DNA from: Magnetovibrio sp.
GTDB lineage: Bacteria > Pseudomonadota > Alphaproteobacteria > Rhodospirillales > Magnetovibrionaceae
DNA length: 22,730 bases
Direction of reading: 5' to 3'
Assembly (NCBI GenBank): GCA_016763255.1
Contig: JAESUA010000333.1
Span: forward strand, 1 to 22,730
A program made the position numbers and the translations under genes. Positions within the stretch are counted from its first letter, which is position 1, and each line of letters begins with the position of its first letter. This document shows positions 1 to 21,843 of the stretch, one piece after another. The notes under the pieces were generated by a model. The model was not told the origin of the DNA, made no database searches, and worked only from the letters and a program-made list of their open reading frames with translations.

Positions 1-417
1 CTGTCTGGCGGTACGGGAAACGATACCCTGTACGGCGGTAACGGTAACGACAACCTGTCCGGTGGCGCGGATAACGACACCTTGTGGGGAGGCACAGGCC
101 TAGACATCTTGGACGGCGGTACCGGCAGCGACTGGTACGTGCATGAAAATACCGGCATGTCATATGTGTTTGACAGCAGCGGCGTGCAAGACGTCATCAA
201 GTTCTCCACGGTTACTAACGACCAGATGAATTTTTCTTATTTCGGTACCAGCAATGAACATTTGCGGGTCTATACGAACGCCGACATCGCCGACAACGGC
301 ATCGTTGACGATGGTGCTGTGATTTGGAACTTCTTCTCCGACGGTCCGGCTGCCGACCGCGTGGAATGGGTTGTGGACCAAAATGACGTCGGGTGGTTCA
401 TCAGCGGCTGGGCCTAA
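1..417 (+). CDS. C-terminal end of an RTX (hemolysin-type calcium-binding) secreted protein, 5'-partial
   Basis: The reading frame is open from the first base and ends at TAA 415-417, so only the last 138 residues are visible. The first 40 or so residues are about five glycine/aspartate nonapeptides of the form GGxGxDxLx, for example LSGGTGNDT and LYGGNGNDN. In the RTX family these bind Ca2+ and fold into a beta-roll outside the cell. The remaining 95 residues lack repeats and end with WFISGWA; in this family the uncleaved type I secretion signal lies at this end. A type I ABC transporter and adaptor follow on the same strand (1873-4973) and are the obvious exporter. The activity of the full protein (protease, lipase, adhesin or other) cannot be told from this fragment. 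Confidence 0.87.
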
Positions 418-444
418 GCAGAATAGGCTTCCAATTGACGTGTG

Positions 445-5186: not shown

Positions 5187-5234
5187 CCCTTGGTAAGGGT
5201 GAGGCCGACAGTTCGATTCTGTCCGGCGGCACCA
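5187..5234 (+). other. 3' fragment of tRNA-Thr(GGT), probable attachment-site remnant
   Basis: The 48 bases match standard tRNA positions 29-76: loop TTGGTAA with anticodon GGT, half of the anticodon stem (CCC/GGG), variable loop AGGCC, a perfect 5-bp T-stem (GACAG/CTGTC) enclosing TTCGATT, acceptor strand CGGCGGC, then A and CCA. The bases at positions 27 and 28 no longer pair with 42 and 43. Upstream there is no D-arm and no GCCGCCG acceptor strand, so this is not a functional tRNA. Tyrosine recombinases commonly use exactly this anticodon-to-CCA block as att site. The fragment is therefore most simply the end of an element integrated at a tRNA-Thr gene lying outside the window to the left. 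Confidence 0.8.
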
Positions 5235-5317
5235 TTTCTTTAAAATCAATACGTTATATATCTTGTTTCGGTAGTGGACCACCTAGGGGGTCAAATACCG
5301 TGCATAATCTTGCATGT

Positions 5318-5809: not shown

Positions 5810-5963
5810 CTTTAGGTGAGATGGTCGCATTTTAAGCGAGATTAATGACATAAACGCAACGCTACGGGTGATTGAGGCTGGTTCTTAAGGACCATTGCGG
5901 GGGGTACCTATCATTGGTTGTTTTGTTGCGGTCACTAGTTAAAAATGACGACAAGCCGTACAT

Positions 5964-5991
5964 TTGAATTACTTTAATATTTTATTATTAT
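5964..5991 (+). promoter_or_regulatory. Candidate promoter of the surface-protein/export operon
   Basis: TTGAAT (5964-5969) and TATTAT (5986-5991) are 16 bases apart within an AT-rich tract that stands out from its surroundings. This would place a start near 6000 and a leader of about 60 bases before ATG 6060. Alternative -10 boxes exist in the same tract, so the exact position is uncertain. Confidence 0.25.
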
Positions 5992-6059
5992 TAATACTAA
6001 GTTGCGGATATAAGCATTGATCTTTTTTGAGCGCAGGGTGCTCATGGTTGTGGGGTGAA

Positions 6060-9000
6060 ATGCGTAAGTTTTCTTCGAGTATTATGACGGCTCTTGAGCC
6101 ACGGGTCATGCTGGATGCGGCCATGATGGCCACTGCTGTGGATGCTGTGTCATCTGATGGCGGTGACGACTCGCGCATACAAACCTCAGAGACTCTTTCT
6201 GCCGATGACTTTGAGGCGCAGCTCAGCGCACTGGTGGCCGATGGGGCCACGTATAGTGAAATTATGTTTGTCGATAGCACCGCCCTGTCGGACCCTGATA
6301 TTCAGGCGGCGATTGAATTGCGTCGCCAAGCCGATCCGAATTTAACGGTTCTGTCTCTTGGTGCGGACGGTCTGTCGACCATCAACCGCACCTTGGCGCT
6401 TTATGCCGATGTTGGCGTGCAGTTCGATGCTATGCACATCCTGACCCATGCCGAAGATGGTCAGGTCCAGCTTGGCACGACGATTTTAGAGCTGGACGAC
6501 CTGGATGAAGGTTCCGCGACTGCACAAAGTGTCGAAAGCTGGAAAGATGCGCTTAACGACGGTGCCGATATCTTGTTTTACGGCTGTAACCTTGCCGCAA
6601 GCCAAGATGGCCGGGCCTTTGTGGATCGCATCGCGGAGTTGACGGGGCGCGATGTTGCCGCATCCGAGGATTTGACCGGTGATGCCGGCCAAGGCGGTGA
6701 TTGGGACCTGGAGATTCAAACCGGGCAAATTGAAACCAGCGTCATGGCCGCACAGGGCTATCAAGGCGTTCTCGGTTTTGCAACGACGGACCACAATGGC
6801 GATAGCACGGCCAATCCGCTACGCATGACCACCTGGAATGTGATCGGTTTGGATTCCAACAAACCGCTCATCGAAGGGCCTAACAAGTTCATGGTCGGCT
6901 TGCGGGTCGAGGCCGACGGTGCAGGGCTGAGCGGCTATACCGTGAAAATCGTCGACGACGATGGCGTGGATGTGTTCGGCTCCGGTTACACCATCGGTGA
7001 TAGTACGGTTGTTTCGGTCTTTGATGATGGTGTCGACAACATCAAGTTCACCGGTAAGGAGATGTACACCGGTGTGAACATTGGTGCCAACATGTCACAA
7101 GACTACTATTTTAATGTCGAGGTTCTGCGCAGTGCTGACTCCTTAGGCCAAATTCAGCCGTTCCATTTTGAGGTTTTCCAAGATGCGGACAACGACGGCA
7201 TCTTCGATGCTGGCGAAACAGGTCTAAAACTCGACAAGTTTTCTTGGCTGTCCGATAGCGCGGCGGCCAATACACCGTTGTATCTGTACGTCGAAAAATA
7301 CATTTCCCAGGCGCGCAACGATGTGGTCGATCAGACCTACCCGAATACGGCCTCGGCATCGGATGATTACAGCGCCGTTCGCATTAATGGAGTGACGGCC
7401 AACGGCGTTAACCCCGATGGTCCGATTACTTTGTTCCTTGGCGAAACCGTGACCGTTCGGGCCGAAGGGCAGACCGCCACCCAAGGCTATCCGCAAATGA
7501 CGTTTACGACCGTATTTGATACGGACCTGTTTAAAATCAATTCGGTCAATCAGTATTACGATAAGCCTGACGGTTCGACGGATTATCAACAAGATTTTGG
7601 CACAGGCACCGATGCTGACGGCAATTTCAATACCCTGTCGGGCACGGCCAACACCTCGATGTATGCCAATGCGGCGGGGTGGAACCCATCGACCCATGGT
7701 TTGATGATCACATCCGCACCGCCCAAGGCGGGTGGTGGGCCAATCGTTTCGGATTATTCCGTGACCATAACCGGTACCGGCAGCGGCACGCTGGATACAA
7801 TGATCTTGGATTATTCCGGCAGCAGCTTTCACTATAACGCCGACTTCGACACCGGGGCCGAATCTGTCAAAGTACTTGCGGTGAACGGTGCGATTGTCGG
7901 TACGGTCAAAGACGATATCACCGGCGATGATATTGGTGACGTGGCGATCAGTGGAATAACCATCACCCTGACCGGCATTTTGGACACCAACCGCAATGGC
8001 ACCATCGATGCCGGCGAAACCACCACGGTCACCACCCAAACCACCACCACCGACGCCAATGGTAAATATGCGTTCCTGAATTTGTTGCCCGGTGAATATA
8101 CGGTCAGTGAAGGTGCGACCGCAGGGTATGCCGACGTGACCGATACCGACGGCACGACTAATGGCACCGACGTCAATACGGTGAAAGTGATCATCGGCAG
8201 CGGCGTCACGACGGCGACGGCTGGGGCCATCGGCTTTACCGGTGTGTCCGGTTTGACTGAAGGCGAAACCCTGGGGTATCAGCGCGCAGATTTTGTAGAA
8301 GCGCGCACAGATCTTTCGTTGAGCAAAACCGTCAACACCACGGCACCGCAAGTCGGCGGTAATGTGACCTATACATTGGCGGTGACGAACAGCTCCAATG
8401 TTGATGCCGCTGCGGTTCAGGTGACCGAAAAACTTCCGTCCGGCCTGACGTTCGTGAGCGACAGTTCTGGTGGTGCATCCTACAACAGCACCACCGGCAT
8501 CTGGACGGTTGGCAGCGTTGCCGCCGGTGTGACCAAGACCATCACCATCACCGCCACGGTGACCAGCAATGACGCCATCACCAATTTTGCCGAAATCACC
8601 AGCATCAAGGATGCGTCCGGCAACGACATGACGGATCGCGATTCCACAGCCGGAAATAATGATGGTGCCGACAATACCTATGGCACCGCCGATGATGGCG
8701 GTGAACACAATCTAGAAGACGACGAAGCCAAGGTCACCATTGACGCTTCGAGCGCGGATTTGAGCCTCATGAAGGCGGTCAACAACGACACCCCCAGTGT
8801 TGGGGACACCGTTACGTTTACCTTGGCGGTGACCAATTCCGGCCCGGATGGCGCCACCAATGTGGTCGTGACCGATAGCCTTCCGTCTGGAATGTCGAAT
8901 GTGACGTTGGTGTCTGCAACAACAGGCGGAACCTTCAATGTGGGCACCGGGGTATGGTCCATTCCCACGTTGGCCAATGGCGCAACGGCGATTTTGAAGT

Positions 9001-12000
9001 TTACCGCCCAGGTTGATGTGGCGTCGGAAATCACCAACTACGCCGAAATCACGGCTTCAGATCAGTTCGATCCGGATTCCTCGCCAACCACAGATCGCAA
9101 CACCGATGATGGTGGCGATAATGTTCCCGATGATGATGAAGCCTATGTGGTTCTCACGCCTTTGGCCGCAGACTTAAGCATCGGCCTGACGGTCAGCGAC
9201 ACCGCGCCTAAAATTGGCGATACCATCACCTACACCATCACCTTGAACAACGCTGGGCCCAACACCGCCACCGGTGTGGTGGTCACCCAGACCTTACCCG
9301 GCGGGGTGACCTATGGTTCGGGTGGAACGTCGCACAGTGCGGGCACCGTGACCTGGAATGCCGGTGACATTGCTGCCGGAACCACGTTGACCCAAACGGT
9401 TACGGTGACGGTTGATTCAACCGGGACCAAGATCAGTTATGCCGAAGTCAAAAGCACCACCAATTTCGCCACGGTTTCCGATCCTGATTCCAAGCCCACC
9501 GATAACGGCGGCACCGGCGGCGCATCGGGGGCCGATGACTGGGGCGACGGCATTTTAGATGATGATGAAGCCAAGGTGACCATCACCCCGGGGGCAGGGG
9601 ATCTTGCACTCTCCAAATCTTATGTGGTGACCGATGGCACCCTCGATAGCCTTGACGATACGATCACGTTTACCCTGACGGTGACCAATGAAGGCGTCGT
9701 TGATGCGCATAACATCAAGGTCAAAGACACCATGTCTTCGGGCCTAACGTATAAAACGACCACCTCGGCTGACGGCACCTATGACGGTGCAACCGGAATC
9801 TGGACCATTGGGGCCTTGGCTGTAGGGGCGAGCAAAACTTTGGTTTTTGTCGCCGATGTGGACAGCGTTTTGGCGCAATCGAATTATGCCGAGATTACAG
9901 CCGCGACGAGTGATGTGGGTGGCTCAACGGCACTCATCGATGCGGATTCCACCGTCAATAACGGTACAAACCCGACTGTAAATGAGGATGACGAAGCGCT
10001 GGTCGAATTGCCAGCGATCCCTTATGCGGATTTGCAGCTTACAAAAACGGTGAGTAACGCCAGCCCCGGAAGTAATGCAGATGTAACGTTTACCATTACG
10101 GTCACCAACACCGGTGTTGATACGGCCTATGGCGTGAAAATTCTTGATACCATGCCCTATGGTGGAACCAGAGAATTTACATCTATCAAAACCATCAACC
10201 CAGAACAGGGTACATTTTCCTTTGACGACGGGACTGACAAAGGCACTTGGGATGTGGGAACACTGGCTTTTGGCGACGAAGTGACATTGACGTATGTCGT
10301 TACTTCGCCTTCGGGGACGGGCGGCGGGAGTTATGATTCGCTGACCAACTACGCGCAAGTCACCGAGGCCTTTCAAGATGTTGCGAAGACCAAGGCAATC
10401 CTGGACCCGGATTCTACGGTGAATAATGGGACGGTCGGTCAGGCGACTTATGAAGACGATGAAGCAAAGGCGACGATCATCAATTCTCAGGTTTCGCGTT
10501 TGGATGTGGCGATCTCGTCTTCCGTTTCTGTAACAGATGCCGCCCTTAATTCGAAGGCATCAGATGCAAATTTGGTGCTCAATGATGTGGTGACCTACAC
10601 CATTCAGGCCATCAACCAGGGCGTGGATGCCAACAACCCCGAACTCGTCATTACATGGCCGAAAGGTCTGATTACGCCTTCTTCCTTTACCGAAAATTCC
10701 ACCAACGGCACCTTGTTCTATTCGATCGATAATGGCGATACATGGACAGATGCGTCCGGCGGCATCGCCGGTTTGAGCATCACCCACTTCAAATGGTCGC
10801 CAACCGATTCGGCCTCCACCAAGCTGGCCGCAGGTGTTACGAAGACTTTAACCTTAACCGGGAGCGTGACGGCATTAGGCGTATCCAAAAACGCAATCGA
10901 TGTTCAAGCGTGGTGGAATACGACCCAAGGAACAACGGATGATACCGACTCGACATTCCCCGGCGCGGATCTGGGAAATACAACGACCACCCCTAAAGTC
11001 GATTTAACCAATGCAATTTTTCATGATCTGGATACGGACGATTATGGAGACGGCATTGCGGATGATGATGAAACAAGCGTTACAATTGGTGGAAATCAAA
11101 CGGTTGATTTAAGTCTTGAAAAATCGTTTTCCATTGATGGTGGGCAAAATTACCTGACCAGTGGTGCCTTAAGCGATGGGCAGGTTGTTACCTTTAAACT
11201 GACGGTAACCAACGATGCTCTGGCCAACAGCCAAGCAACCTCTGTCATTGTTAATGATACTTTGCCCGCAGGCTTTGTCTATCAGACAGCGTATGGCGAA
11301 GGGACTTACGACAAGACGACCGGTGACTGGACCGTTGGTACCCTGACGAGAGGGGCTTCAGCCAGCATTTACATCATTGCCAAGGTCGATTGGGGCGCCA
11401 CAACAAGCACTTCGCTCGTCAACTACGCCCAAGTCAAAAGCATGGTGCAAACCGATAGTGACTCAACGCCGGGTGACAACAGCACCACCGAAGATGATGA
11501 TTCAAGCATCACCATAACGGAAAAACCACTCCAGGCGGATCTAAGCCTGACCAAAACGGTTTCCAATTCGTCGCCGGATTTGAACACCAACGTCACCTTC
11601 ACGCTGACGGTGAGTAACGCAGGCCCAGCAGGCGCAACCAACGTGACGGTCGCGGATGCTTTGCCCACGGGGCTCACATATGTAAGCAACACCGGCAGCG
11701 GCAGCTATAATTCCACTACGGGTATATGGACGGTCGGTAGTATTGCCAACGGCAGCACCGCGACCATTCAAATTACCGCCAAAGTGACCTCCACCGATCC
11801 CATCATTAATTTTGCCGAGGTCAAGACATCAGATCAGGCAGATCCCGATTCAACGGCGGGCAATGGCGATCAAAACCCCGATGAAGATGACGAAGCGACG
11901 GCACGGCTTACGGCCAAGGCAGCCGATCTGAGCCTCACCAAATCGGTCAGTAACGCCAACCCGAACGTCGGCGATACCATTAGCTTTACCCTAACACTTA

Positions 12001-15000
12001 TCAATTCCGGCCCCGATGCAACGACGGGGGTCACGGTATTAGACCCGCTGCCCAGCGGCTTCACCCAAACCGGCATTACGCTGAACGGTACGGCGACCGG
12101 TGATACGTATTCCGGCGGGTTATGGACCTTGGGCAATGTGGCGGTTGGTGAAATTCACACCCTGACCATTACCGGCACGGTCGACAGCGCGGCGGCATTT
12201 ACCAATTTTGCCCAGGTCAAAACATCCAGCCTGAGCGATCCAGATTCAGTGGTGAACAACGACACTGACAAAACCGCCAACGAAGACGATGAAGGACGGG
12301 TGCGCGTAACCCCGCAAGCCGCCGACCTCAGCCTTTCGAAAAGCGTCAGCAACGCCCGGCCTTCGGTGGGTGATAATGTCACCTTTACGCTGACCTTGAT
12401 GAACAGTGGCCCCGATAACGCCACCGGCGTGGTGGTGACGGATTATCTGCCCACGGGTACCACCTGGGTGAGCGGCGGAAATCACAGCGCCGGTACCATC
12501 ACCTGGTCGCCGGGTAATGTAGCCGTGGGTGAAATCACAACCCTTCAGATCGTCGTAAAGGTCAATAGCGCTGCGGCTATGAGCAACTTTGCCGAAGTCA
12601 CCGCGGTTGATCAGTTCGATCCGGATTCCACCAAAAACAATGATGGTGGCAACAAAACCGATAACGAAGACGATGAAGCCAAAGCCAGTTTCGATCCGGT
12701 TCAAATCGATCTAGAAGTGGCGACCTCGGTCAGCGATACCACCCCCGATATCAACGAGACGGTGACCTATACGGTGCGCATCACCAACACCAGTTCCGAT
12801 GATGCCACGGGCGTATCCCTGCAAGATGTACTGGATACGGGGTTGAGCTATGTGGCCGCTTCGGCCAGCGATGGCGGCACCGTAAGTGGCCAGAAAGTAT
12901 CGTGGAGCGGCCTGTCGATTGCCGCAGGCGATACCATAGAACTGACCTTCAAAGCCAAGGTCACCGATGCCAGCGCGACGCTGAAGGCTGTGGCGCAAAT
13001 TACAGCAGCCGATCAACCGGATATCGACTCCAAGCCTTATGACGGCACAACCAATGGCACCGCCACGGATGATCTTGGCGATACAAAATTGCCCAACAAT
13101 GGTAACACCTGGGACGATGATGAAGCCGTCGTCACGCTGAATGCCATCGGTGCGGATTTGGATTTGTCCAAGACCGTGAGCGTTAGCAGCAAAGCCACCG
13201 CCGAGACCGATGGCTTTTACAAAGCGACCTTCATCCTGACCGTGAGCAATTCTGGCCCCGATGCCGCGACCCATGTGGTCGTGCGCGACAGCTTGCCCTC
13301 GGGCTTAAGCTTCATCAGCGCCACCACGGCGTCGGGAACCTATGATTCCAAAAGTGGCTACTGGACCATCGGGACTGTTGCAGATGCGGGTTCGGCGACC
13401 TTGACCATCGTTGCACGCGTCAACACCCCGGGTGCGGTGACCAACTTTGCGCAAATTACAAATTCCGACCAGCCGGACCCGGATTCCAAACCCAACAACA
13501 ACAGCGGCAAGCCCGGTGGCGGCACGGGCCCCGAAGACGATGATGATACGGCAATCGTTAATGTCGAACTGATCGATCTCAGCCTGGCAAAAACCATCAG
13601 CAACGCCACACCGGTGGTGGGCGATACGATCACCTATACCGTGACGTTGTCGAATGCCACGGGCTTTGACACAGCCACCAATATTGCCGTGACGGAAAGT
13701 CTGCCCAGCGGGTTGACCGGCGTGACCGTTACCCCCGCTGCGGGGACCACCTACAATTCCGCAACCGGGGTGTGGAGTGTCGCCAGTTTGGCTGGCGGGG
13801 CCAGCAAAACACTCACCGTGACCGGCACGGTCAGCGATATCAGCGCCTTGCTGAATGTGGTCGAGGTTACCGCGGCGGATCAGATCGACGTCGATTCAAA
13901 GCCCAAAAATAAATCATCTGAACCAGGTGAAGATGACACCGCCACCGCCGGGCCGACGTTTGCCTACATCACCGGCAAGGTTCTGGATGATCGCAAAGGC
14001 TACGCACCCGACGTATTTGATCCTGCAGATGGTCCTATTTCCGGCGTTACGGTGCAGTTGTGGACGGATGCGGGCAGTGGCGTGCCGGGTACATTGATCG
14101 CAACCACCACCACCAATGCAAAGGGCGTCTATGAATTTAATGCCCCGGCCGGCACCTATGTGATCGTTGAAACGGATAAGGCCGGGTACCTCAGCGTGCG
14201 CGATCAAGAAACCGTCAATCCCACGACGGGTGTCAGCACAGGTCAGACCACCAGCCCGGATAACAACCGTATTCCCATCACGGTGACCAACGGCAACGAA
14301 TACTACGACCGTAATTTCCTCGATCTCACGCCGTGGGCCATCAGCGGCAACGTCTATAACGATGACACCAAAGATGGGGCCTTGGACGGCAACAATGAAA
14401 CCGGCATTTCTGGTGTGACCGTCAAGCTGTACAAAGACGTCGACGGAAATTGGACCACGACCGGCGATCAAACTTTGATCGGCACGGCCACAACCGATGC
14501 CAACGGTGCCTATTCGTTTAAAGCGGGCGTCGGCAACTACCGTGTCGTTGAAACCCACGATGGAACCCAGGACGCAACCCATAAGGCCAATTACACGCAT
14601 GTTACCGACAGTGACGGTCTGGCAAACAACGTCGGAGATGACCAAATTATTGACGTGCAGATCACCCCGAAAGGTAGCGATAAAACCGGTAATGATTTCT
14701 TAGATGTTGCCGGTGCCACCCCGAAGGCCGATCTGGTCCTGACCAAATCGGTCGACAATGCCAAGCCGAAATCCGGTGACACGGTTGTGTTTACCATGAC
14801 CATCACCAACAAGGGCCCGGATACGGCCAAAACGGTCAAGCTGGTGGATAACCTGCCCACTGGTGTGACCTATCTCAGCGATGACGCCGGTGGGGCTTAC
14901 AATTCTAGCACCGGTGTATGGACGGTTGGTGATCTGGCCAATACGGCAACGTCAACGTTGAAAATCACGGTTCGGGTGGATGCAAAGACGGCTGTGACCA

Positions 15001-15854
15001 ATAATGCCACGGTTTCGTCCCCGACCACCGACCCCAATCTGACCAATAACAAAGACAATGCGGTGGTGACACCACAAAAAACCGCACCGCCACCGCCACC
15101 GGCACCACCGCCACCGGCACCACCGCCACCGGCACCACCGCCACCACCTGCGCCACCGCCAGTGGATACGAGTACGCCGAGCACCACAAAAAGCCCGGTG
15201 TTGTCGTCTATTGAGCCGCAACGCATCGAGTTGTCGGTGCAAGATCGTGCGATTTCAGGCGGCATTCATACATTTTCGCTGCCGACCAGTGCCATCCAAA
15301 CCGAAGGCGATGCGGGCGATGTAAGCGTCGAAGCGACCCTGGTTGACGGCTCACCCTTACCCGATTACATCAAGTTTGATTCGGAATCGCGCGCTTTTAC
15401 CATCAATGCGGATGATGCCATAAAGCTGGGTATCATGGGGTTGGATATCCGTATCACCGCGATCGATGGATCAAGCAATGAGGCATCAGCGGTATTCCAT
15501 GTTCAAATTGGTGCGGAAGAAGATGATAGCGAGGCTGCAAAAGCGGCAAAGGCAATTGATCAGGCCAATCGAGAGGCCAATCCAAATGCGAACGATGGCG
15601 AAACGGCGCCAACCGAAAATGGTGACCAAGAGGGCGCTGGTGCTTCTGACCAAAATGATGGTGAACAAAACAATGACAATAACGCTGCGGTGCCACCGGT
15701 GCCTTCAGCAGGCGTAGACGATAGCGCAGACGTGTCTTCACGCGGCAAACTAAGCTTGGCAGAGCAAGTGCGCGCAGCATCTTCACAGGGATTTCAGCAG
15801 CGCAGTGACGGCATGGCACAAGACATCATTTTGTGGCTTAAGAACGTTGCCTGA
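6060..15854 (+). CDS. Giant modular surface protein, 3264 aa: LEPR motif, DUF4347, SdrD-B-like domains, 14 DUF11 repeats, cadherin-like end
   Basis: Predicted exported, cell-surface or matrix protein. The ATG at 6060 (upstream GTGGGG) fits better than the TTG at 6027. Order: LEPRVMLDA (12-20); DUF4347 (about 66-238) with THAEDG (His130) and FYGCNLA (Cys176); an unassigned beta-rich region (240-605); an SdrD-B/CNA-B-like domain (611-745); thirteen DUF11-type repeats (about 750-2635), the sixth atypical; two more SdrD-B-like domains (2636-2885); a fourteenth DUF11 (2890-3007); a proline hinge (3008-3040); a dystroglycan/cadherin-like domain (3055-3160); an Asp/Asn/Glu-rich tail and a short helical end. 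There is no hydrophobic Sec signal, sortase motif or RTX block, so export must use another route. Four export-type genes follow 80 bp downstream on the same strand. DUF11/SdrD-B architecture is typical of adhesins; the target is unknown. Confidence 0.95.
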   Translation: MRKFSSSIMTALEPRVMLDAAMMATAVDAVSSDGGDDSRIQTSETLSADDFEAQLSALVADGATYSEIMFVDSTALSDPDIQAAIELRRQADPNLTVLSLGADGLSTINRTLALYADVGVQFDAMHILTHAEDGQVQLGTTILELDDLDEGSATAQSVESWKDALNDGADILFYGCNLAASQDGRAFVDRIAELTGRDVAASEDLTGDAGQGGDWDLEIQTGQIETSVMAAQGYQGVLGFATTDHNGDSTANPLRMTTWNVIGLDSNKPLIEGPNKFMVGLRVEADGAGLSGYTVKIVDDDGVDVFGSGYTIGDSTVVSVFDDGVDNIKFTGKEMYTGVNIGANMSQDYYFNVEVLRSADSLGQIQPFHFEVFQDADNDGIFDAGETGLKLDKFSWLSDSAAANTPLYLYVEKYISQARNDVVDQTYPNTASASDDYSAVRINGVTANGVNPDGPITLFLGETVTVRAEGQTATQGYPQMTFTTVFDTDLFKINSVNQYYDKPDGSTDYQQDFGTGTDADGNFNTLSGTANTSMYANAAGWNPSTHGLMITSAPPKAGGGPIVSDYSVTITGTGSGTLDTMILDYSGSSFHYNADFDTGAESVKVLAVNGAIVGTVKDDITGDDIGDVAISGITITLTGILDTNRNGTIDAGETTTVTTQTTTTDANGKYAFLNLLPGEYTVSEGATAGYADVTDTDGTTNGTDVNTVKVIIGSGVTTATAGAIGFTGVSGLTEGETLGYQRADFVEARTDLSLSKTVNTTAPQVGGNVTYTLAVTNSSNVDAAAVQVTEKLPSGLTFVSDSSGGASYNSTTGIWTVGSVAAGVTKTITITATVTSNDAITNFAEITSIKDASGNDMTDRDSTAGNNDGADNTYGTADDGGEHNLEDDEAKVTIDASSADLSLMKAVNNDTPSVGDTVTFTLAVTNSGPDGATNVVVTDSLPSGMSNVTLVSATTGGTFNVGTGVWSIPTLANGATAILKFTAQVDVASEITNYAEITASDQFDPDSSPTTDRNTDDGGDNVPDDDEAYVVLTPLAADLSIGLTVSDTAPKIGDTITYTITLNNAGPNTATGVVVTQTLPGGVTYGSGGTSHSAGTVTWNAGDIAAGTTLTQTVTVTVDSTGTKISYAEVKSTTNFATVSDPDSKPTDNGGTGGASGADDWGDGILDDDEAKVTITPGAGDLALSKSYVVTDGTLDSLDDTITFTLTVTNEGVVDAHNIKVKDTMSSGLTYKTTTSADGTYDGATGIWTIGALAVGASKTLVFVADVDSVLAQSNYAEITAATSDVGGSTALIDADSTVNNGTNPTVNEDDEALVELPAIPYADLQLTKTVSNASPGSNADVTFTITVTNTGVDTAYGVKILDTMPYGGTREFTSIKTINPEQGTFSFDDGTDKGTWDVGTLAFGDEVTLTYVVTSPSGTGGGSYDSLTNYAQVTEAFQDVAKTKAILDPDSTVNNGTVGQATYEDDEAKATIINSQVSRLDVAISSSVSVTDAALNSKASDANLVLNDVVTYTIQAINQGVDANNPELVITWPKGLITPSSFTENSTNGTLFYSIDNGDTWTDASGGIAGLSITHFKWSPTDSASTKLAAGVTKTLTLTGSVTALGVSKNAIDVQAWWNTTQGTTDDTDSTFPGADLGNTTTTPKVDLTNAIFHDLDTDDYGDGIADDDETSVTIGGNQTVDLSLEKSFSIDGGQNYLTSGALSDGQVVTFKLTVTNDALANSQATSVIVNDTLPAGFVYQTAYGEGTYDKTTGDWTVGTLTRGASASIYIIAKVDWGATTSTSLVNYAQVKSMVQTDSDSTPGDNSTTEDDDSSITITEKPLQADLSLTKTVSNSSPDLNTNVTFTLTVSNAGPAGATNVTVADALPTGLTYVSNTGSGSYNSTTGIWTVGSIANGSTATIQITAKVTSTDPIINFAEVKTSDQADPDSTAGNGDQNPDEDDEATARLTAKAADLSLTKSVSNANPNVGDTISFTLTLINSGPDATTGVTVLDPLPSGFTQTGITLNGTATGDTYSGGLWTLGNVAVGEIHTLTITGTVDSAAAFTNFAQVKTSSLSDPDSVVNNDTDKTANEDDEGRVRVTPQAADLSLSKSVSNARPSVGDNVTFTLTLMNSGPDNATGVVVTDYLPTGTTWVSGGNHSAGTITWSPGNVAVGEITTLQIVVKVNSAAAMSNFAEVTAVDQFDPDSTKNNDGGNKTDNEDDEAKASFDPVQIDLEVATSVSDTTPDINETVTYTVRITNTSSDDATGVSLQDVLDTGLSYVAASASDGGTVSGQKVSWSGLSIAAGDTIELTFKAKVTDASATLKAVAQITAADQPDIDSKPYDGTTNGTATDDLGDTKLPNNGNTWDDDEAVVTLNAIGADLDLSKTVSVSSKATAETDGFYKATFILTVSNSGPDAATHVVVRDSLPSGLSFISATTASGTYDSKSGYWTIGTVADAGSATLTIVARVNTPGAVTNFAQITNSDQPDPDSKPNNNSGKPGGGTGPEDDDDTAIVNVELIDLSLAKTISNATPVVGDTITYTVTLSNATGFDTATNIAVTESLPSGLTGVTVTPAAGTTYNSATGVWSVASLAGGASKTLTVTGTVSDISALLNVVEVTAADQIDVDSKPKNKSSEPGEDDTATAGPTFAYITGKVLDDRKGYAPDVFDPADGPISGVTVQLWTDAGSGVPGTLIATTTTNAKGVYEFNAPAGTYVIVETDKAGYLSVRDQETVNPTTGVSTGQTTSPDNNRIPITVTNGNEYYDRNFLDLTPWAISGNVYNDDTKDGALDGNNETGISGVTVKLYKDVDGNWTTTGDQTLIGTATTDANGAYSFKAGVGNYRVVETHDGTQDATHKANYTHVTDSDGLANNVGDDQIIDVQITPKGSDKTGNDFLDVAGATPKADLVLTKSVDNAKPKSGDTVVFTMTITNKGPDTAKTVKLVDNLPTGVTYLSDDAGGAYNSSTGVWTVGDLANTATSTLKITVRVDAKTAVTNNATVSSPTTDPNLTNNKDNAVVTPQKTAPPPPPAPPPPAPPPPAPPPPPAPPPVDTSTPSTTKSPVLSSIEPQRIELSVQDRAISGGIHTFSLPTSAIQTEGDAGDVSVEATLVDGSPLPDYIKFDSESRAFTINADDAIKLGIMGLDIRITAIDGSSNEASAVFHVQIGAEEDDSEAAKAAKAIDQANREANPNANDGETAPTENGDQEGAGASDQNDGEQNNDNNAAVPPVPSAGVDDSADVSSRGKLSLAEQVRAASSQGFQQRSDGMAQDIILWLKNVA
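8307..13965 (+). repeat. Array of 13 DUF11-type repeats within the giant gene
   Basis: Repeats of 385-470 bp, one of about 600 bp, begin near 8307, 8754, 9168, 9597, 10023, 10495, 11100, 11536, 11923, 12320, 12705, 13153 and 13572. Each opens with a variant of ADLSLxKxVS, continues VGDxVTFTLTVTNSGPD, LPSGLTYVS and TGxWTVG, and ends with an acidic linker such as DPDSxxNNGxxxxEDDEA. A fourteenth copy lies apart at about 14729-15080. DNA identity between copies is limited, so the array is old, not a recent tandem amplification. The acidic linkers resemble Ca2+-binding loops, which would stiffen a chain of beta-sandwich domains; that is inference. Confidence 0.9.
15101..15145 (+). repeat. Three perfect copies of a 15-bp unit encoding an Ala-Pro hinge
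   Basis: GGCACCACCGCCACC is repeated exactly at 15101-15115, 15116-15130 and 15131-15145, with a degenerate copy just before. It encodes APPPP units inside a proline-rich stretch (residues 3008-3040 of the giant protein). The in-frame 15-bp period allows copy number to change without frame loss. Confidence 0.85.
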
Positions 15855-15899
15855 TGGGGCCGTGCGTATGATTATCCACTCTCAATTGGCAGAGAAACA

Positions 15900-15915
15900 G
15901 GTTACAAATGTAACC
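15900..15915 (+). promoter_or_regulatory. Perfect inverted repeat between the giant gene and the TolC-family gene
   Basis: GGTTAC-AAAT-GTAACC gives two 6-bp arms around a 4-base loop, 45 bases after the giant gene's stop and 20 bases before ATG 15935. It could be an operator or an mRNA processing/attenuating hairpin setting the ratio of surface protein to export machinery. The lack of a following U-run argues against full termination. Confidence 0.35.
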
Positions 15916-15934
15916 ACAGTGAAATAAAAATTTT

Positions 15935-17491
15935 ATGATCGGTGAGTTTTTTAACGTGAGCATAATCAAAGCATTAAGTGGTGTAATCGGGGCAGTGTTG
16001 CTTTCGGCATGTTCGGTGATGCCGGCCGCGTTTGAGCGTGCCGAAATTCAGGAAACGGCTGTCCAAGACTTGGCGCTGGTTGCCGCATCGCAAGACCCTT
16101 TGGACGACATCCTGACTTTGGAAGGCGCGATGGCGCGCGCCATCAAGTACAATCTGGAAAATCGTCTTCAGTTGATGCGGACCTCTTTGGCCGGTCGTAA
16201 TTTCGAGATGGTCAAGATGGACATGCTGCCGTTGTTGAACGCGTCAGCAGGCCACACTTCGCGCAACAATTACGATGCATCGCGCAGCTATAACGTGACC
16301 CAGGGGACGGAAACGACCGACTATACGACGTCGTCGGAACGCAAACACAGCACGTTCGATGCCCGCCTTGTCTGGAGCGTCCTTGATTTCGGCGTGAGCT
16401 ATTTGGCGGCCAAGCAGGAAGGTTATCGCTTTTTGGTCGATGACCTCACCCGCAAAAAAACGATCATTACGCTGCTCGAACAGGTGCGCACACAGTTTTG
16501 GCGCGCTGCGACAATGCAAAAAATTCGCAGGGAACTTGAAAATCTTTTGGTGGATGCGGAACGGACCTTCACAAATTTGCAAAAAGTTCGTGCCGATGCC
16601 CTAAGCCCTCGACGCCAGGTCCTCGAAGATATTCGAACCTTGGCGGAAATTGTTCAGCAACTCGAAAAAATGCATCAAATTGCTGACTTGGCGACCATTG
16701 AGTTGGGGGCCTTGATCAACGAACCGTTTGACAAACCGGTGAGCGTTTTGGCCCCGGCACAGCTTCCGATGGTTCCCGATTTCAAAATGGATCTGGAGAA
16801 AATGGAGCTGATCGCGTTGATGAATTCCACTGATTATGTCAGCGAAATGTACAACGTGAAGATTGACCAGATGGAATCACGTAAAGCGCTGTTGCGTTTG
16901 CTGCCTGGCCTGGAATTTTCCTATGGCTTTAATTACGACAACAATCGCTACCTCTATAACAATTCGTGGACGGAAGCAGGGGTGCGTGTTTCGTACAATG
17001 TTTTCCAATTGTTGGCCGCTGATGAAATTATGGCGCACAACGATGCGCGTGAGCAAGTTGCGTTGAACCGGCGTTTGATGACCAATGTCGCGACTCTGAC
17101 CAAGACGCACTTGTCTTGGCAAAACTATCAAAACGCACGCAAGCGTTATGAACGGTCTGAATATATCGGTGATATTGATGCCCAAATTGCAGACCTGACA
17201 GGCATGGCCAGAGCCAGCAAAAAGGTCAGCGGCGTTGAGAAAATTAAAACCGACGCGCGGGCCATGCGCTCGTTGATGGGGCGCATGCAATCCTATGTGG
17301 ATGTTCAAAGTTCATACGGATCTTTTTTAATGACGTTGGGCGTTAATCCCGTGCCGAAAAATTACCAGCAATTGGATTTGAAGCAATTAAGCGAAGCCAT
17401 GCATTCGTTCAGTATCGGCGTGGACAGTGAAGCCCTGCAAAAGTTGACCCTAAATTCCCCAGGCGAGCCGGTTGCTGATTCCACCTTGTAA
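15935..17491 (+). CDS. TolC-family outer-membrane channel, predicted lipoprotein
   Basis: Outer-membrane efflux/secretion channel subunit, 518 aa, expected to act as a trimer docking to the adaptors encoded next. The N-terminus has a hydrophobic segment ending in the lipobox LSAC (Cys26, or Cys19 from an alternative GTG start at 15956). That GTG has the better ribosome site (GGTGAG, nine bases upstream) and yields a tidier signal peptide, so 15956 may be the true start. The +2 residue is Ser, which favours sorting to the outer membrane. Two long helical repeats, about 60-270 and 290-490, fit the OEP fold, each with beta-strand insertions, for example NYDASRSYNVTQGTE. It is the only channel gene in the window and lies 80 bp after the giant gene, so it probably serves that operon. 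It could also serve the upstream ABC pair. Confidence 0.88.
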   Translation: MIGEFFNVSIIKALSGVIGAVLLSACSVMPAAFERAEIQETAVQDLALVAASQDPLDDILTLEGAMARAIKYNLENRLQLMRTSLAGRNFEMVKMDMLPLLNASAGHTSRNNYDASRSYNVTQGTETTDYTTSSERKHSTFDARLVWSVLDFGVSYLAAKQEGYRFLVDDLTRKKTIITLLEQVRTQFWRAATMQKIRRELENLLVDAERTFTNLQKVRADALSPRRQVLEDIRTLAEIVQQLEKMHQIADLATIELGALINEPFDKPVSVLAPAQLPMVPDFKMDLEKMELIALMNSTDYVSEMYNVKIDQMESRKALLRLLPGLEFSYGFNYDNNRYLYNNSWTEAGVRVSYNVFQLLAADEIMAHNDAREQVALNRRLMTNVATLTKTHLSWQNYQNARKRYERSEYIGDIDAQIADLTGMARASKKVSGVEKIKTDARAMRSLMGRMQSYVDVQSSYGSFLMTLGVNPVPKNYQQLDLKQLSEAMHSFSIGVDSEALQKLTLNSPGEPVADSTL

Positions 17492-17575
17492 AGGACTGGA
17501 CTCGATTTTCAAAGGTGATGGGATAACGTATTTAGTTTTTGGTCGATATGTGTTTTCAATTGTATTTCGGAAAAT

Positions 17576-18379
17576 ATGATGCCTTTGAATGTGACCTTTT
17601 GGTTCCCGGTGTTAGTGGTTTTTGCGGTCTACTCGATCACACCCGGTACGGGACATGCGGCGCAAGGCGTTGCGCAACTGCCAACGCCCGCCTCGCTTGA
17701 AGGTGAAATCCACAATTATCAACAATCCACTGTGCGCGGTCAGCTTCGCCCGCGTCAACATGCAGTTCTGGCTGCCGGGATGCAGGGGGAATTGATTGCG
17801 GTTCGCGTTTATGTTGGTGATCGTGTGACCAAAGACAACGTATTGGCATCGTTTAATTGCCGCACAGAAGAAGCCCGCAAAGCGATCTCACAAGCCCGCT
17901 TGAAAGCCGCTCAAATTACCTTTGATGTTAATTTCGAGCTGTCATAAACAGACAGCATCAGCATCTTGGAAGTGGAGCTGAGCGAAGCGGAGGTTGATGT
18001 GCAAAAAGCAGAATTAAGAAGCGCTCAAGCCGATGTCGAAAAGTGTGTGGTGCATGCACCGTTTGACGGCACGGTGGTCGAAAAATACGTTCAGGCTTAT
18101 CAGTTTGTCAGGATGGGGGAGCCATTGTTGCGCCTTGTCAACAGCACCGACTTGGAAGTCGAAGCGATTGTGTCCTCTCAATGGCTAAAATGGTTGAAGC
18201 CGGGAACGGTGTTTTCCATGACAGTCGAAGAAGTATCGCAAACCGTTTTAGGGCGCGTTGATCGAGTGGTTGATGAAGTGGATCCAATCAGTCGCACCGT
18301 TCGTATGATCGGTGTATTGGATAAGACGTTCATCAAAATGCTGCCGGGGATGAGTGGCGTCCTCAAATTCGAGCAGTAG
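17576..18379 (+). pseudogene. RND-type periplasmic adaptor (HlyD family) interrupted by one in-frame TAA
   Basis: The frame runs from ATG 17576 (or the adjacent ATG 17579) to TAG 18377-18379, with a single TAA at 17945-17947 (codon 124). The first part has a signal peptide (about 1-28, ending GHAAQG) and the first lipoyl half with GELIAVRVYVGDRVTKDN. After the TAA the same frame resumes immediately with TDSISILEVELSEAEVDV, the second lipoyl half (VHAPFDGTVVEKYV) and the beta-barrel. There is no frameshift or deletion, so one substitution explains the break; TAA is one change from AAA, CAA or GAA. Complete, it would be a 267-residue efflux-type adaptor. It starts 84 bp after the channel gene and ends three bases before the next gene. 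Alternatives are a sequencing error, readthrough, or reinitiation at TTG 17966. Confidence 0.85.
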
Positions 18380-18382
18380 ACT

Positions 18383-19750
18383 ATGGAAACGCCAATCACG
18401 TCTCAAGACCCACCTCAAACGCCGCAGCAATCCATTAAAAGTGTAGCTGATCTATTGTTGCTGCAACAACGTTTGCGCGGTGCATCGTCGCTTGCCGAAT
18501 TGGCGGCGTTGGTGGTGAACGACACTCGGGTTCTGTTTCCGTATTGGAGTGCCGTATTTTGGCACCATGGAAAGGTTGAAGCTGTATCAGGGTTGCATGA
18601 ACCGGCACGTCAATCGTCGTTTATCATGTGGGTTAGTGAGTTGCTGCATCATACTCAGAAAAAGAATCCTCATGCCCCTGTGCTCCTGACGGCTGGCGCT
18701 AGCCCGAAAAATCTGCAAGCGCGTTGGGCTGAATATTTTCCAAACGAAGTCCTGTGGCTTCCATTCATAAACCCTGAAGAACCTGATGGCGACCCGATCG
18801 GTGGATTGCTGCTGGCGCGCGATGTCGTTTGGAAACCGGAAGAACAGCGCCTTCTTGCTCATTGGACAGAAGCCGTCGCCTATAGTCTTCAAGCCGTATC
18901 CAGACGCCGCAAACGCCTGTTTGCCAAACTTGGTAAACGCGAACGTATGTGGACAGCCGGCGTCGCGATCATCTTGTTTTTTGCGGCTATGTGGTTTCCT
19001 GTTCGCATGTCAGTTTTGGCACCGGGTGAGGTGGTGCCGCGAAAACCGTCAGTCGTGCGTGCACAAATAGATGGTGTGATCGATAAGGTCTTTGTGAAAC
19101 CGAGCCAAGAGGTCAAAGCCGGAGACGTTCTTGTAAGGTTGGATGCCACGGCCCTGAAAGCGCGCCTGGATAACGTCGTGCAAGGCTTGGAAATCGCCCG
19201 CGCCGAGCGGTTGCGCGCCGAACAGGCATCAGTAACAGACCGTAAAGCATCGGCGCAGTTGCCGTTATTCCAGGCCAAAATCAAAAAACAAACGGCGGAG
19301 GTCGCATACGTTCAATCCTTATTGAACCGTATTGAGGTGCGCGCCGAACAAGATGGCGTGGCGATTGTTCCCGACGCCGGTGATTTGGAAGGCCTGCCCG
19401 TTAAAATCGGACAGCGGATGTTAACATTGGCCAACCCCAAAGAAGCTGACCTTGAAGCCTGGCTGCCGGTTGGTGACAGTTTGCGTTTGCCGCTGGGATC
19501 GGCGATGGAATTTTACCTCAACATCGATCCGACCAGTCCTGTCGATGCCACGTTGCGCCATATTGATTATCAAGCACAGATGTCGCCGGAAGGTCTTTTA
19601 GCCTTTCGTGTGCGGGCCGATTTTACGGATGACACCATGCCGCGCATTGGCTGGCGAGGGACGGCCAAACTCTATGGCGAAGAAGTGCCGCTCTATTATT
19701 ACCTCTTTCGCCGACCCGTCGCGGCAGCGCGTCAGTGGTTTGGTTTATGA
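18383..19750 (+). CDS. HlyD-family adaptor with an N-terminal GAF-like cytoplasmic domain
   Basis: A 455-residue inner-membrane adaptor with an unusual front end. Residues about 20-175 look like a GAF-type sensory domain (SLAELAALVVNDTRVLFPYW near the start, then LWLPF and GGLLLARD strands and a closing helix). A basic stretch RRRKRLFAKLGKRER then leads into one transmembrane segment at about 190-210. The periplasmic part has the first lipoyl half (VRAQIDGVIDKVFVKPSQEV), a short helical hairpin, the second half (VRAEQDGVAIVPDA) and a beta-barrel. The helical hairpin is much shorter than in the type I adaptor at 3618, so it may not reach the outer membrane alone. ATG 18383 follows the previous stop by three bases, and the TGA overlaps the next start, so translation is coupled. 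GAF ligand and function are unknown. Confidence 0.9.
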   Translation: METPITSQDPPQTPQQSIKSVADLLLLQQRLRGASSLAELAALVVNDTRVLFPYWSAVFWHHGKVEAVSGLHEPARQSSFIMWVSELLHHTQKKNPHAPVLLTAGASPKNLQARWAEYFPNEVLWLPFINPEEPDGDPIGGLLLARDVVWKPEEQRLLAHWTEAVAYSLQAVSRRRKRLFAKLGKRERMWTAGVAIILFFAAMWFPVRMSVLAPGEVVPRKPSVVRAQIDGVIDKVFVKPSQEVKAGDVLVRLDATALKARLDNVVQGLEIARAERLRAEQASVTDRKASAQLPLFQAKIKKQTAEVAYVQSLLNRIEVRAEQDGVAIVPDAGDLEGLPVKIGQRMLTLANPKEADLEAWLPVGDSLRLPLGSAMEFYLNIDPTSPVDATLRHIDYQAQMSPEGLLAFRVRADFTDDTMPRIGWRGTAKLYGEEVPLYYYLFRRPVAAARQWFGL

Positions 19751-21843
19751 ACGAACCTTCGCCCCTTGCCGCTATATTGCGCCAGGACTTGTCCTTGCTG
19801 GACGCCGAGCCTGGGCCTGGTGGTGAACGTGCATGGTTGCTGCATGACCCATTAAGTGGGCGCTACTTTCGCATCGGCCAGACGCAGATTGAAATTCTAA
19901 ACCATATCGATGTCGGTGGGGCGCAAGACATTGCCCAAGCCGCCACACAACACGCTGATCACGACATCACCCCAGCTCAGGTGGAAGAGTTTCTGGATTT
20001 TTTGCGCAAGAACAGTTTGGTTGTCGTTGATGCGCAACAACACGAACTCCACGAGCGCATGCGGGCAAAAAAGCCCGGTTGGCTGGCGGCCCTGGCCAAG
20101 AGCTATTTGTTTATTCGTGTGCCGTTGTTCAAACCCGACCGTTTTTTAGACAAAACATTGCCCTATGTGCGGTGGTTGGGAACCAAGCCTGCCTGGGCTG
20201 CATTTGTGTTGATTGCGGTGGTGGGAGTCTTGATGACGGTCCGTCAATGGGATCAATTCTGGGCGACATTTTTATATTTTTTCAATCTCCAAGGTGCCGT
20301 GGCGTTTGCCATTTCGATGGTCTTGGTTAAGGCGGTGCACGAGCTGGCCCATGCTTACGTCGCAAAGGCATATGGATGCCGCGTGCCGATCATCGGTGTC
20401 GCATTTTTGGTGATGTGGCCGGTGTTGTACACCGATGCGACCGATACCTGGAAGCTGCGAGAGCGCCGCCACAGATTGCGCGTTGCGGCGGCTGGCATCT
20501 CGGCAGAAATGGCTGTGGCCGCTGTGGCCTTGTTGGCGTGGAACTTTGCACCCGAAGGGGTGTTTAAAAGTGTGTTCTTCGTGATGGCGACGTCGACTTG
20601 GGTTCTTAGTGTTCTGATCAACCTCAACCCCTTGATGCGATTTGATGGCTATTACCTCCTTTCCGATTGGCTGAAAGAACCCAATATGGAAATTCGTGCG
20701 CATGCCTTGGGTAAATGGTGGCTGCGCAAAGCTCTGTTCGATTTTTCCGATCCGCCGCCGGAGCGGCCAAAAGCCCGTTTGATCGTCTATTCTTTATCCA
20801 TTTGGATTTACCGATTCTTGTTGTTTTTGGGCATTGCCCTGCTGGTCTACCATCTGTTCTTCAAGTTGTTGGGGATCGTCTTGTTCTTGGTGGAGATCGT
20901 CTATTTCATCGTGGCACCAATTTGGCGTGAGATGCGGGAATGGGCCAAGCGTAAAGAACAGCTGAGCATCAACGCGGTGACCATAAGAACCATGATTGGC
21001 GTTGCGGCGGTGTTGGTTTCGTTCGTTGTGCCGTGGCAAACGGGGATCGAAGTGCCGGCCATCTTGAAGCATCGATTGATCACGGTATATGCGCCGATGG
21101 CAGGGAAAATTAGTGAACTCAACGTTACGGCAGGAGAAAAAATTCAATCCGCCGATTCCCTGGTCAAAGTTGATGCGGCTGATGTTCAATTTGAGTACCA
21201 ACAAGCGGTAATGAAATACGAAGAACTCTGGTGGCAGCGTGCGTCCCTGGGATTTGATCCGGATTTGCTGGATAGAACCTTGATTGTCGCCAGTGAACTT
21301 TTGACTCAGGCCCAAAAACTGGTGAGTCTGCGTGACGTTCAGGATAGAGCCAACGTCATCGCCCCAATCGACGCCACCGTGTCGGATATGGATCCGGAGC
21401 TAACTGCAGGGCAGTGGGTGGGTGAGGGAAAGGCCCTGTTTACCTTAAAAGAAAACAGCCCGGTTCAAGTGATTGCATATGTGGATGAGCAGATGCTCAG
21501 CCGTCTCAACATCGGCCAAACGGGGCGTTTCTATCCTGAAGGAGGAGGCCGTGAAACGTATCAGGTTCGCGTGATGGAAATCGAATCCTTTGGTCTTAGT
21601 GAGTTGGAGGAGCTGTTGCCTGCGTCTTTGTTCGGTGGTGGTGTCGCCGTGCGTCAAAACAAAAATGACCAACTTATTCCTGTTCAGGCGACGTATCGGA
21701 TTTTTTTAGCTCTTGATAAATCAGACGTGGATACGGAGCGGGTTCTTCGAGGTGATGTCGTCTTGACTGCTAAGGCTGAAAGTTTTCTCGAGCGTATTTT
21801 CCGAACCACCCTGACAGCCGTATTTCGGGAAAGCTCGTTCTAA
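19747..21843 (+). CDS. PqqD-like / M50 site-2-protease-like / HlyD fusion membrane protein
   Basis: 698 residues starting at ATG 19747, whose ATGA overlaps the previous stop; the in-frame GTG at 19735 is less likely. Residues about 1-95 resemble a PqqD-type winged-helix domain (WLLHDPLSGRYFRIG, then an EEFLDFLRKNSLVV helix-strand). Residues about 145-430 hold seven or eight transmembrane segments with the M50 zinc motif HELAH (198-202) and the downstream NPLMRFDGYY motif (294-303) whose Asp300 is the usual third ligand, so the protease core looks intact. After the last membrane segment come lipoyl-like halves (YAPMAGKISELNVTAGEKI and IAPIDATVSDMD) and a beta-barrel typical of HlyD adaptors. 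It is last in the operon and may be the inner-membrane component that recognises, and possibly cleaves, an exported substrate; this role is inferred. Confidence 0.9.
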   Translation: MNEPSPLAAILRQDLSLLDAEPGPGGERAWLLHDPLSGRYFRIGQTQIEILNHIDVGGAQDIAQAATQHADHDITPAQVEEFLDFLRKNSLVVVDAQQHELHERMRAKKPGWLAALAKSYLFIRVPLFKPDRFLDKTLPYVRWLGTKPAWAAFVLIAVVGVLMTVRQWDQFWATFLYFFNLQGAVAFAISMVLVKAVHELAHAYVAKAYGCRVPIIGVAFLVMWPVLYTDATDTWKLRERRHRLRVAAAGISAEMAVAAVALLAWNFAPEGVFKSVFFVMATSTWVLSVLINLNPLMRFDGYYLLSDWLKEPNMEIRAHALGKWWLRKALFDFSDPPPERPKARLIVYSLSIWIYRFLLFLGIALLVYHLFFKLLGIVLFLVEIVYFIVAPIWREMREWAKRKEQLSINAVTIRTMIGVAAVLVSFVVPWQTGIEVPAILKHRLITVYAPMAGKISELNVTAGEKIQSADSLVKVDAADVQFEYQQAVMKYEELWWQRASLGFDPDLLDRTLIVASELLTQAQKLVSLRDVQDRANVIAPIDATVSDMDPELTAGQWVGEGKALFTLKENSPVQVIAYVDEQMLSRLNIGQTGRFYPEGGGRETYQVRVMEIESFGLSELEELLPASLFGGGVAVRQNKNDQLIPVQATYRIFLALDKSDVDTERVLRGDVVLTAKAESFLERIFRTTLTAVFRESSF

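Follow-up and report, generated by a model that had tools for sequence, protein, structure and literature searches.

A TolC, adaptor and M50-HlyD gene set that accompanies tagged giant surface proteins: a possible dedicated export system

How a surface protein of more than 3000 residues might leave the cell is the question raised by five genes at positions 6060-21843 of the DNA analysed here (the window, 22,730 nucleotides from Magnetovibrio sp.; it is the complete contig C274 in a draft assembly of 2.7 Mb, which has 425 contigs and is 67% complete). The first gene encodes a giant putative surface protein. The other four, referred to as the module, encode a TolC-family channel, a resistance-nodulation-division (RND)-type adaptor, a HlyD adaptor with a GAF-like domain (GAF-HlyD) and a protein combining a PqqD-like domain, an M50 protease and a HlyD part (M50-HlyD). 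All five lie on the + strand with gaps of 80, 84 and 3 bp, the final pair overlapping, in line with the close spacing originally described. Judged by sequence comparison, this arrangement exceeds chance: the same genes are seen together in numerous unrelated genomes. In our assessment the evidence tips slightly towards a dedicated TolC-linked machine for export and processing, in which M50-HlyD would receive giants carrying a conserved N-terminal tag. This linkage of module and client is drawn from synteny, genome co-occurrence, the association of tag and module, the PqqD likeness, the retained M50 residues and the scarcity of hydrophobic N-termini among the giants.

Relatives of M50-HlyD were numerous, at least 3275 being found at E≤1e-20 among 7996 scored candidates. 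For synteny, named genomes provided at least 590 loci, of which the 80 best were taken with flanks of up to 10 kb and searched with the window proteins as queries; as the best-scoring loci were chosen, this set is biased to close relatives. GAF-HlyD was present in 75/80 loci, the RND adaptor in 64/80, TolC in 56/80 and all four genes in 55/80, rising to 49 of the 57 loci that had at least 5 kb upstream of the M50 frame. The titles of the loci included Pectobacterium, Pseudomonas, Azospirillum, Rhizobium, Klebsiella, Methylomonas, Nitrospira and a Desulfovibrio bin. Giant genes were located either before TolC or after M50-HlyD. That the four helper genes and the giant constitute a real and widespread unit is supported by these comparative data. 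The unit had been proposed from the window alone, and the proposal was strengthened by this synteny together with the genome co-occurrence and the tag link described below.

The window giant (6060..15854, + strand) has 3264 amino acids (aa) from an ATG at 6060 to a stop at 15854; without a stop, the same frame reaches back to a TTG at 6027 (3275 aa). A Pfam scan of this open reading frame (ORF) identified the LEPR motif, a DUF4347 domain, 13 DUF11 stretches and SdrD_B/SpaA-like domains, with no match to an RTX family, so that the giant stood as predicted both in its DUF4347/DUF11 content and in its lack of an RTX block. The DUF4347 domain (6291..6764, + strand; PF14252, 138.4 bits, cut-off 24.6) is predicted to have a caspase/CHAT-like fold, since its AlphaFold2 (AF2) model matched caspase-like folds, and a Cys (31/31) and a His (29/29) were conserved in the ungapped rows of its alignment, as a candidate dyad of a clan CD cysteine peptidase. 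Ahead of it, the N-terminal motif ALEPRVMLDA (6090..6119, + strand) was recognized by a motif profile as a case of the tag LExR-phi-phi-[FL]-D-[GA], where phi is a hydrophobic residue. The corresponding LEPR-XLL model NF012209 (cut-off 17) scored the 261-aa N-terminal slice at 20.5 bits and the entire 3275-aa frame at 16.2 bits.

To follow the tag through other genomes, 100 DUF4347 hits, picked non-randomly to cover genomes, were fetched together with flanking DNA (at most 6 kb upstream and 14 kb downstream). Two (L178 and L197) were dropped as their 5' ends were cut, leaving 98 loci. The tag was scored where LEx[RK]-phi-phi-[FLYMI] preceded DUF4347 or coincided with its start, and a module gene where a profile score exceeded 150. 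The tag was found in 85/98 loci. Module genes were present in the fetched stretch of 53/85 tagged vs 0/13 untagged loci (p=1.4e-5), and, where at least 2 kb was visible on both sides, of 21/26 tagged vs 0/7 untagged loci (p=1.9e-4). For 84 of the 85 tagged proteins the consensus was [LM]-A-L-E-P-R-[LIV]-[LM]-F-D-[GA]-A with variable flanks, and D[AGS] occurred in 76. When approached from the module side, the 80 synteny loci contained 847 5'-complete ORFs of at least 300 aa, of which 16 carried the tag; all 16 were giants of at least 940 aa, and 12 of them had DUF4347. No tag-like match with D[AG] was seen in the 1.5 kb upstream, in three frames, of the 13 untagged loci and four loci of G071 and G171 (the stretch being shorter for L176 and L194). 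Going by sequence, it is the tag LExR-phi-phi-F-D-[G/A]-A, and not DUF4347, that marks the client. DUF4347 itself, detected in 76 of 200 genomes of the phylum, was rejected as the defining client feature because it was not found in 4/16 motif giants of the module loci and because the 13 motif-less DUF4347 proteins had no module gene nearby.

The two-flank survey left five tagged loci with no module gene in view (L160 of G141, L188 of G064, L198 of G081, L199 of G165 and L221 of G016), and all five genomes have M50-HlyD elsewhere. At L221 (~5530-12681) the tagged DUF4347 giant is broken by an in-frame stop, the tag being in the first piece, and G016 has a second, intact giant beside a full module. 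Nine DUF4347 genomes gave no M50-HlyD match. In eight of them (G050, G071, G090, G115, G152, G161, G171 and G181) neither the DUF4347 proteins read nor the 1.5 kb upstream, in three frames, showed a tag, one further G161 hit being truncated. In the remaining one, G189 (57% complete), both tag and TolC were seen. Counter to the tag rule, G145 and G157 have M50-HlyD, yet the single DUF4347 protein (of three) fetched from each was untagged. Genomes with only a distant form of M50-HlyD (G048, G144 and G186) had variant tags lacking D[AG], and G186 also had one untagged DUF4347 protein. The variants were LEPRLLFSAT, LEERLLLSAD and LEPRMLFAAD, seen on the giants L118 and L179 (G186), L207 (G144) and L191 (G048). 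Perhaps the distant form belongs to a sister system that uses a tag variant of its own.

Co-occurrence was scored in the same 200 phylum genomes, with at most five candidates scored per genome and a strong M50-HlyD defined by a best E below 1e-100 (67 of the 76 genomes with a match). Strong M50-HlyD and DUF4347 were both present in 64 genomes, DUF4347 only in 12, M50-HlyD only in three (G057, G082 and G193) and neither in 121 (Fisher p=7e-36, uncorrected for kinship). Counted per genus (n=110), the corresponding numbers were 29, 7, 2 and 72, and with all 76 M50-HlyD genomes they were 67, 9, 9 and 115. The check that had been suggested, a search for joint occurrence of the module with DUF4347 giants, thus came out favourably.

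The gene set is also mobile. Relatives of M50-HlyD were found in 52 of 72,556 plasmid records, including 18 from Escherichia, 13 from Azospirillum and eight from Citrobacter. On the E. coli G5 plasmid NZ_CP060066.1 (IncHI1B, from a healthy donor), giant, TolC, RND adaptor, HlyD and M50-HlyD follow one another in this order (L272:20836-38214). The giant starts with LESRQLFDGA, with Q at a usually hydrophobic position, and has a DUF4347-like stretch. Among the complete E. coli genomes, 24/5426 contained the M50-HlyD gene at ≥99% identity, and 21 of its 25 places were on plasmids. The Magnetospirillum gryphiswaldense plasmid pMSR-1 (L269:12493-20079) carries the module with a 492-aa cargo ORF that contains ELWxxDGT repeats, lacks the tag and is preceded closely by stop codons; it is probably a truncated giant.

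The helper genes of the window were then considered individually. The first (15935..17491, + strand; PF02321, 56.4 bits) encodes an OEP/TolC-family outer-membrane channel with a lipobox-like LLSAC at its N-terminus, consistent with the lipoprotein originally predicted. The next, the RND-type periplasmic adaptor (17576..18379, + strand), had been taken for one open gene and is not: the ORFs 17576-17947 and 17966-18379 (TIGR01730, 28.7 and 73.3 bits) share one frame, which a TAA at 17945-17947 interrupts. The adaptor was a single uninterrupted frame in 5/5 aligned relatives, one of which is a further copy from the window genome (L125). The third gene (18383..19750, + strand) matched HlyD_D23/HlyD_3 and, by eye, has a membrane segment after its N-terminal domain, in keeping with the predicted HlyD adaptor with an additional N-terminal domain. 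GAF families matched 6 and 4 of 24 homologues, the window protein itself being unmatched.

The last gene, M50-HlyD (19735..21843, + strand; start GTG at 19735 or ATG at 19747), bore out the predicted fusion by Pfam, profile comparison and an AF2 model. The M50 domain scored 32.7 bits with PF02163 (cut-off 27.2), and its membrane part was helical in the AF2 model. Residues H198, E199, H202, N292, P295, D300 and G301, which make up HExxH and NxxPxxxxDG, were invariant in 74 sequences; the motifs of the metal site are kept, and the protein is a predicted site-2 metalloprotease. The closest named relative of this part was the daptide protease NF041824 (181.8 bits, below its cut-off of 300). The N-terminus was matched to PqqD by hhalign at 93.2% (E 3e-7, 68 columns), compared with 0.1-0.3% for three control profiles, and the AF2 model predicted a b-b-b-a-a-a order; with Pfam, PqqD was detected in just 1/22 members (E 0.014). 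In a VIA-align comparison the model matched adaptor and biotinyl-domain chains, and this only within residues 410-681. The adaptors of the module scored below the cut-off of TIGR01843, the adaptor model of the type I secretion system (T1SS).

At the other end of the client, giants located before TolC often finished with a G-K-x-x-[LF]-x-x-Q-[LV] stretch. A profile was trained on 43 C-termini, including the element of the window giant (GKLSLAEQVRAASSQGF..., 15744..15854, + strand, helix-like by eye), and run on 6425 other ORFs at i-E≤1. It retrieved 11 ORFs, namely nine tagged giants with the match at most 12 residues from the C-terminus, one site inside the long L145 frame and one 91-residue ORF. 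Training and test sets were not fully separate, three of the nine being akin to L072 (19-31/40 residues) and the other six sharing at most 12/40. By eye more giants look similar, and one subset ends otherwise. As a universal second signal the element was rejected, the profile finding it in 9/44 tagged test giants with a 3' end vs 0/10 untagged (p=0.18); it is retained as a lead. Eight motif giants (L135, L138, L147, L154, L156, L157, L180 and L186) end in a TPQYGAVLSAGHEEGGDFFF-like stretch that replaces the usual element and presumably resembles the end of a caspase-type domain. At L145 (5635-10482), the frame of a DUF4347/LEPR protein, C-terminal stretch included, continues into the RND adaptor that belongs to the same module; either the fusion is natural or a stop has been lost.

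The surroundings of the five genes in the window bear on what might drive export. Upstream, positions 1-4973 look like an ordinary T1SS locus: the tail of an RTX protein (1..417, + strand; PF00353, 54.3 bits; 5' end beyond the contig), an ORF of unknown kind (671-1687), a full PrtD-type ATP-binding cassette (ABC) protein (1792-3621, + strand; TIGR01842, 648.9 bits, cut-off 510.15) and a T1SS HlyD (3618-4973, + strand; 377.8 bits, cut-off 208.65). The RTX protein is likely the client of this T1SS and would stand outside the module. The pair ends 1.1 kb before the giant gene, and the ABC gene alone 2.4 kb before it. The original statement that the operon has no ABC gene therefore stands for the five genes and omits a PrtD-type ABC and T1SS HlyD on the same strand upstream. 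Between the T1SS and the giant gene is an exact 51-bp copy of the 3' end of tRNA-Thr(GGT) (5187..5237, + strand), att-site-like, the complete gene being on contig C171 of the same genome; such a 3'-end fragment is the usual trace of an integrated element. Downstream, about 90 bp past the M50-HlyD gene, there are two overlapping transposase pieces (21932-22728, - strand; DDE_Tnp_1 and IS4/5-type DUF4096). Elsewhere the genome has two other DUF4347 genes, each followed by TolC and RND adaptor and, on C364, also by GAF-HlyD, the contigs stopping there. The adaptor is uninterrupted on C364 and open to the contig end on C384, and the short contig C184 carries a second M50-HlyD.

A pump was sought around the module in other genomes. 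Against the window PrtD, no ORF in the DNA fetched for the 98 DUF4347 loci (up to 20 kb each) scored above 120 bits, and the best match in the 80 module loci was 110 bits. RND-size ORFs with multiple membrane segments occurred in only 2/80 module loci, both on the opposite strand. Clustering of ORFs of 100-900 aa in the 80 loci gave mixed ABC ATPases as the widest family (10/80), and among small ORFs of 30-100 aa the best family was in 4/77 loci, all Pectobacterium. A hidden pump in the form of an extra conserved neighbour was rejected, as nothing was kept beyond close relatives; these data support the view that neither an ABC nor an RND pump is a conserved neighbour of the module. The upstream T1SS pair was likewise rejected as a family rule for exporting the giant, because it is not conserved next to the module and has its own RTX neighbour; in the window genome it may still serve the giant.

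At the level of whole genomes, 165/200 had a match to the PrtD model when searched for T1SS ABC proteins at E≤1e-70; this threshold is loose and admits other exporters as well. A clear T1SS ABC was not found in five of the 67 strong module genomes (G004, G023, G064, G088 and G176, drafts of 87-100% completeness), where the best scores with a second model were 130-297 bits, below the PrtD-type ABC of G190 (365). As these are draft assemblies, the absence is no proof. G023 and G064 have the whole five-gene module and the tag, and in G004 the M50-HlyD match runs past the contig end. On the E. coli G5 plasmid no T1SS ABC was annotated among the listed genes, only a FecCDE importer, the gene table being incomplete and chromosomes not searched. 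A strongly hydrophobic N-terminal stretch (≥2.2) was seen in 3/84 tagged giants vs 38/54 TolC proteins and 37/56 RND adaptors; the measure is coarse, missing 16/54 TolC proteins and the Sec-like N-termini of L225 (1.63) and L226 (1.91).

These data can be assembled into a conditional scheme. PqqD-like domains bind leader peptides in the pathways of ribosomally synthesized and post-translationally modified peptides (RiPPs). By analogy, the PqqD-like domain of M50-HlyD would bind the tag in the cytosol, after which the M50 domain might cleave at or near the tag, or let it enter the membrane. Together with the free RND-type adaptor, the HlyD portions of both membrane-anchored proteins would build a tube through the periplasm and dock it on the TolC homologue; with such a continuous tube the giant would leave in one step. 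The caspase-like DUF4347, where present, may trim the giant after export. In its boldest form, which takes up the original proposal that M50-HlyD replaces the pump, the scheme has no pump at all: the PqqD-M50-HlyD protein would itself be the inner-membrane entry port. It would read the tag and use a TolC-type channel to release proteins of ~900 to >7000 residues; such systems would occur in Proteobacteria, Nitrospira and other groups, the E. coli plasmid cassette among them. This pump-less part is plausible, and the claim in its full extent falls, in our estimate, a little short of an even chance.

Several observations weigh against a dedicated machine of this kind. No energised transporter was identified, and moving over 3000 residues would need energy. 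The free adaptor gene is interrupted in the window, and the profile found the C-terminal element in only 9/44 test giants. The original prediction was to fall if homologous giants regularly occurred away from these genes. This is partly answered by the untagged DUF4347 proteins, 13/13 of which lack module genes; 32/85 tagged giants also had no module gene in the fetched DNA, many of these loci being cut by contig ends, as did 5/26 with both flanks in view. With the loose T1SS threshold, 61/67 strong M50-HlyD genomes had an ABC match somewhere, and G141, listed as a sixth genome apart from the five above, may have a T1SS-type ABC (second model, 329 bits, full length). Finally, a Vibrio LEPR-XLL giant is reported to have a C-terminal RTX region and so resembles a T1SS client (PMC10868602).

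The last points would suit a T1SS variant in which an unlinked, shared ABC protein, for instance of the PrtD or LssB type, docks with the module adaptors and TolC and energises export, while M50-HlyD only processes or retains the giant. The breadth of the loose ABC matches, the PrtD-type ABC ahead of the giant gene in the window and the placement of the C-terminal element, where T1SS C-terminal signals sit, all lean the same way. We nevertheless consider this unlikely, given the lack of ORFs above 120 bits with the window PrtD in the DNA fetched for the DUF4347 and module loci, the five module genomes and the E. coli plasmid with no clear or annotated T1SS ABC, and, in the window, the ABC protein's own RTX neighbour and the tRNA fragment that parts it from the giant. 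Alternatively, Sec or some other general pathway could take the giant across the inner membrane, leaving the module only outer-membrane passage, anchoring or cutting. M50 proteases do cut membrane or membrane-near segments, and L225 and L226, both untagged DUF4347 proteins, have by eye Sec-like N-termini; however, the rarity of hydrophobic N-termini among tagged giants, even by a coarse measure, and the PqqD-like and GAF-like N-terminal domains, which are expected to be cytosolic and would be odd in a purely periplasmic machine, make such two-step export quite improbable.

Export of a small molecule or peptide, with the giant merely a co-inherited surface partner, would fit the daptide protease as nearest relative of the M50 part and the service of PqqD-like domains to RiPPs. 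We give it very little credence, as the tag sat on giants in every one of the 16 module-locus cases, no neighbour family was conserved among larger or small ORFs, and the L145 DUF4347 protein is in frame with an RND adaptor. A separate matter is whether the window copy is decaying, the interrupted adaptor making it non-functional whatever the family does. The in-frame TAA and the nearby transposase pieces point in that direction; but the other module genes are open, the pieces on C364, C384 and C184 could act in trans, and a base error in the draft genome is possible. Decay of this copy is accordingly regarded as a real but lesser possibility. For the family, the dedicated TolC-linked machine is the explanation we retain, by a slight preference.

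Giants with DUF4347 or LEPR motifs are common among the genomes that were searched, and they are now linked by tag, synteny and co-occurrence to one gene set whose parts are open to test: the tag, the PqqD-like receptor, the M50 active site and the TolC homologue. If the pump-less form were true, known parts would make an envelope-spanning exporter with no energised pump, which poses a basic question of energy. Should export be driven by an unlinked ABC, the system would form a branch of the T1SS distinguished by an N-terminal signal and a protease-adaptor of its own. In both cases a likely role would be assigned to thousands of proteins that at present bear only the names 'HlyD family' or 'putative peptide zinc metalloprotease'. 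In the literature searched, which was available in part and lacked most subscription journals and bioRxiv, neither an exporter tied to the LEPR-XLL or DUF4347 families nor a published account of a PqqD/M50-HlyD and TolC system for giant export was found.

Among known systems, LEPR-XLL (NF012209) and DUF4347 (PF14252), both present in the window giant, are families of the client only. The Pseudomonas aeruginosa protein Tce1 (PA0256), a DUF4347 cargo of the type VI secretion system (T6SS), is small (310 aa) and T6SS-delivered, unlike the giants. RND and major facilitator superfamily tripartite pumps (AcrAB-TolC, EmrAB-TolC) differ in that the module has a giant protein as client and an RND-size ORF at hardly any of its loci. 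The NHLM/PCAT leader-peptidase exporters and the daptide/epipeptide M50 proteases share with the module the idea of combining leader recognition, cutting and an exporter part in one protein; the daptide protease has the M50 domain closest to that of the module, and the PqqD-like domain is a further likeness. In contrast to NHLM/PCAT exporters, the module protease is M50 rather than C39, there is no ABC part, and the client is a giant protein rather than a peptide. The T1SS (HlyB-HlyD-TolC, PrtDEF, LapBCE) shares with the module a TolC-family channel, HlyD-type adaptors, very large repetitive clients lacking a Sec signal and, in some clients, a C-terminal element. The module differs from it in having no ABC gene and in clients that carry a conserved N-terminal tag and mostly no RTX. 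It also has three proteins of the adaptor type; two of them have additional N-terminal domains, and in one of these two an M50 protease is present as well. On the evidence presented, the module belongs with export systems of the TolC-adaptor kind, and within these it possibly represents a new kind of secretion system.

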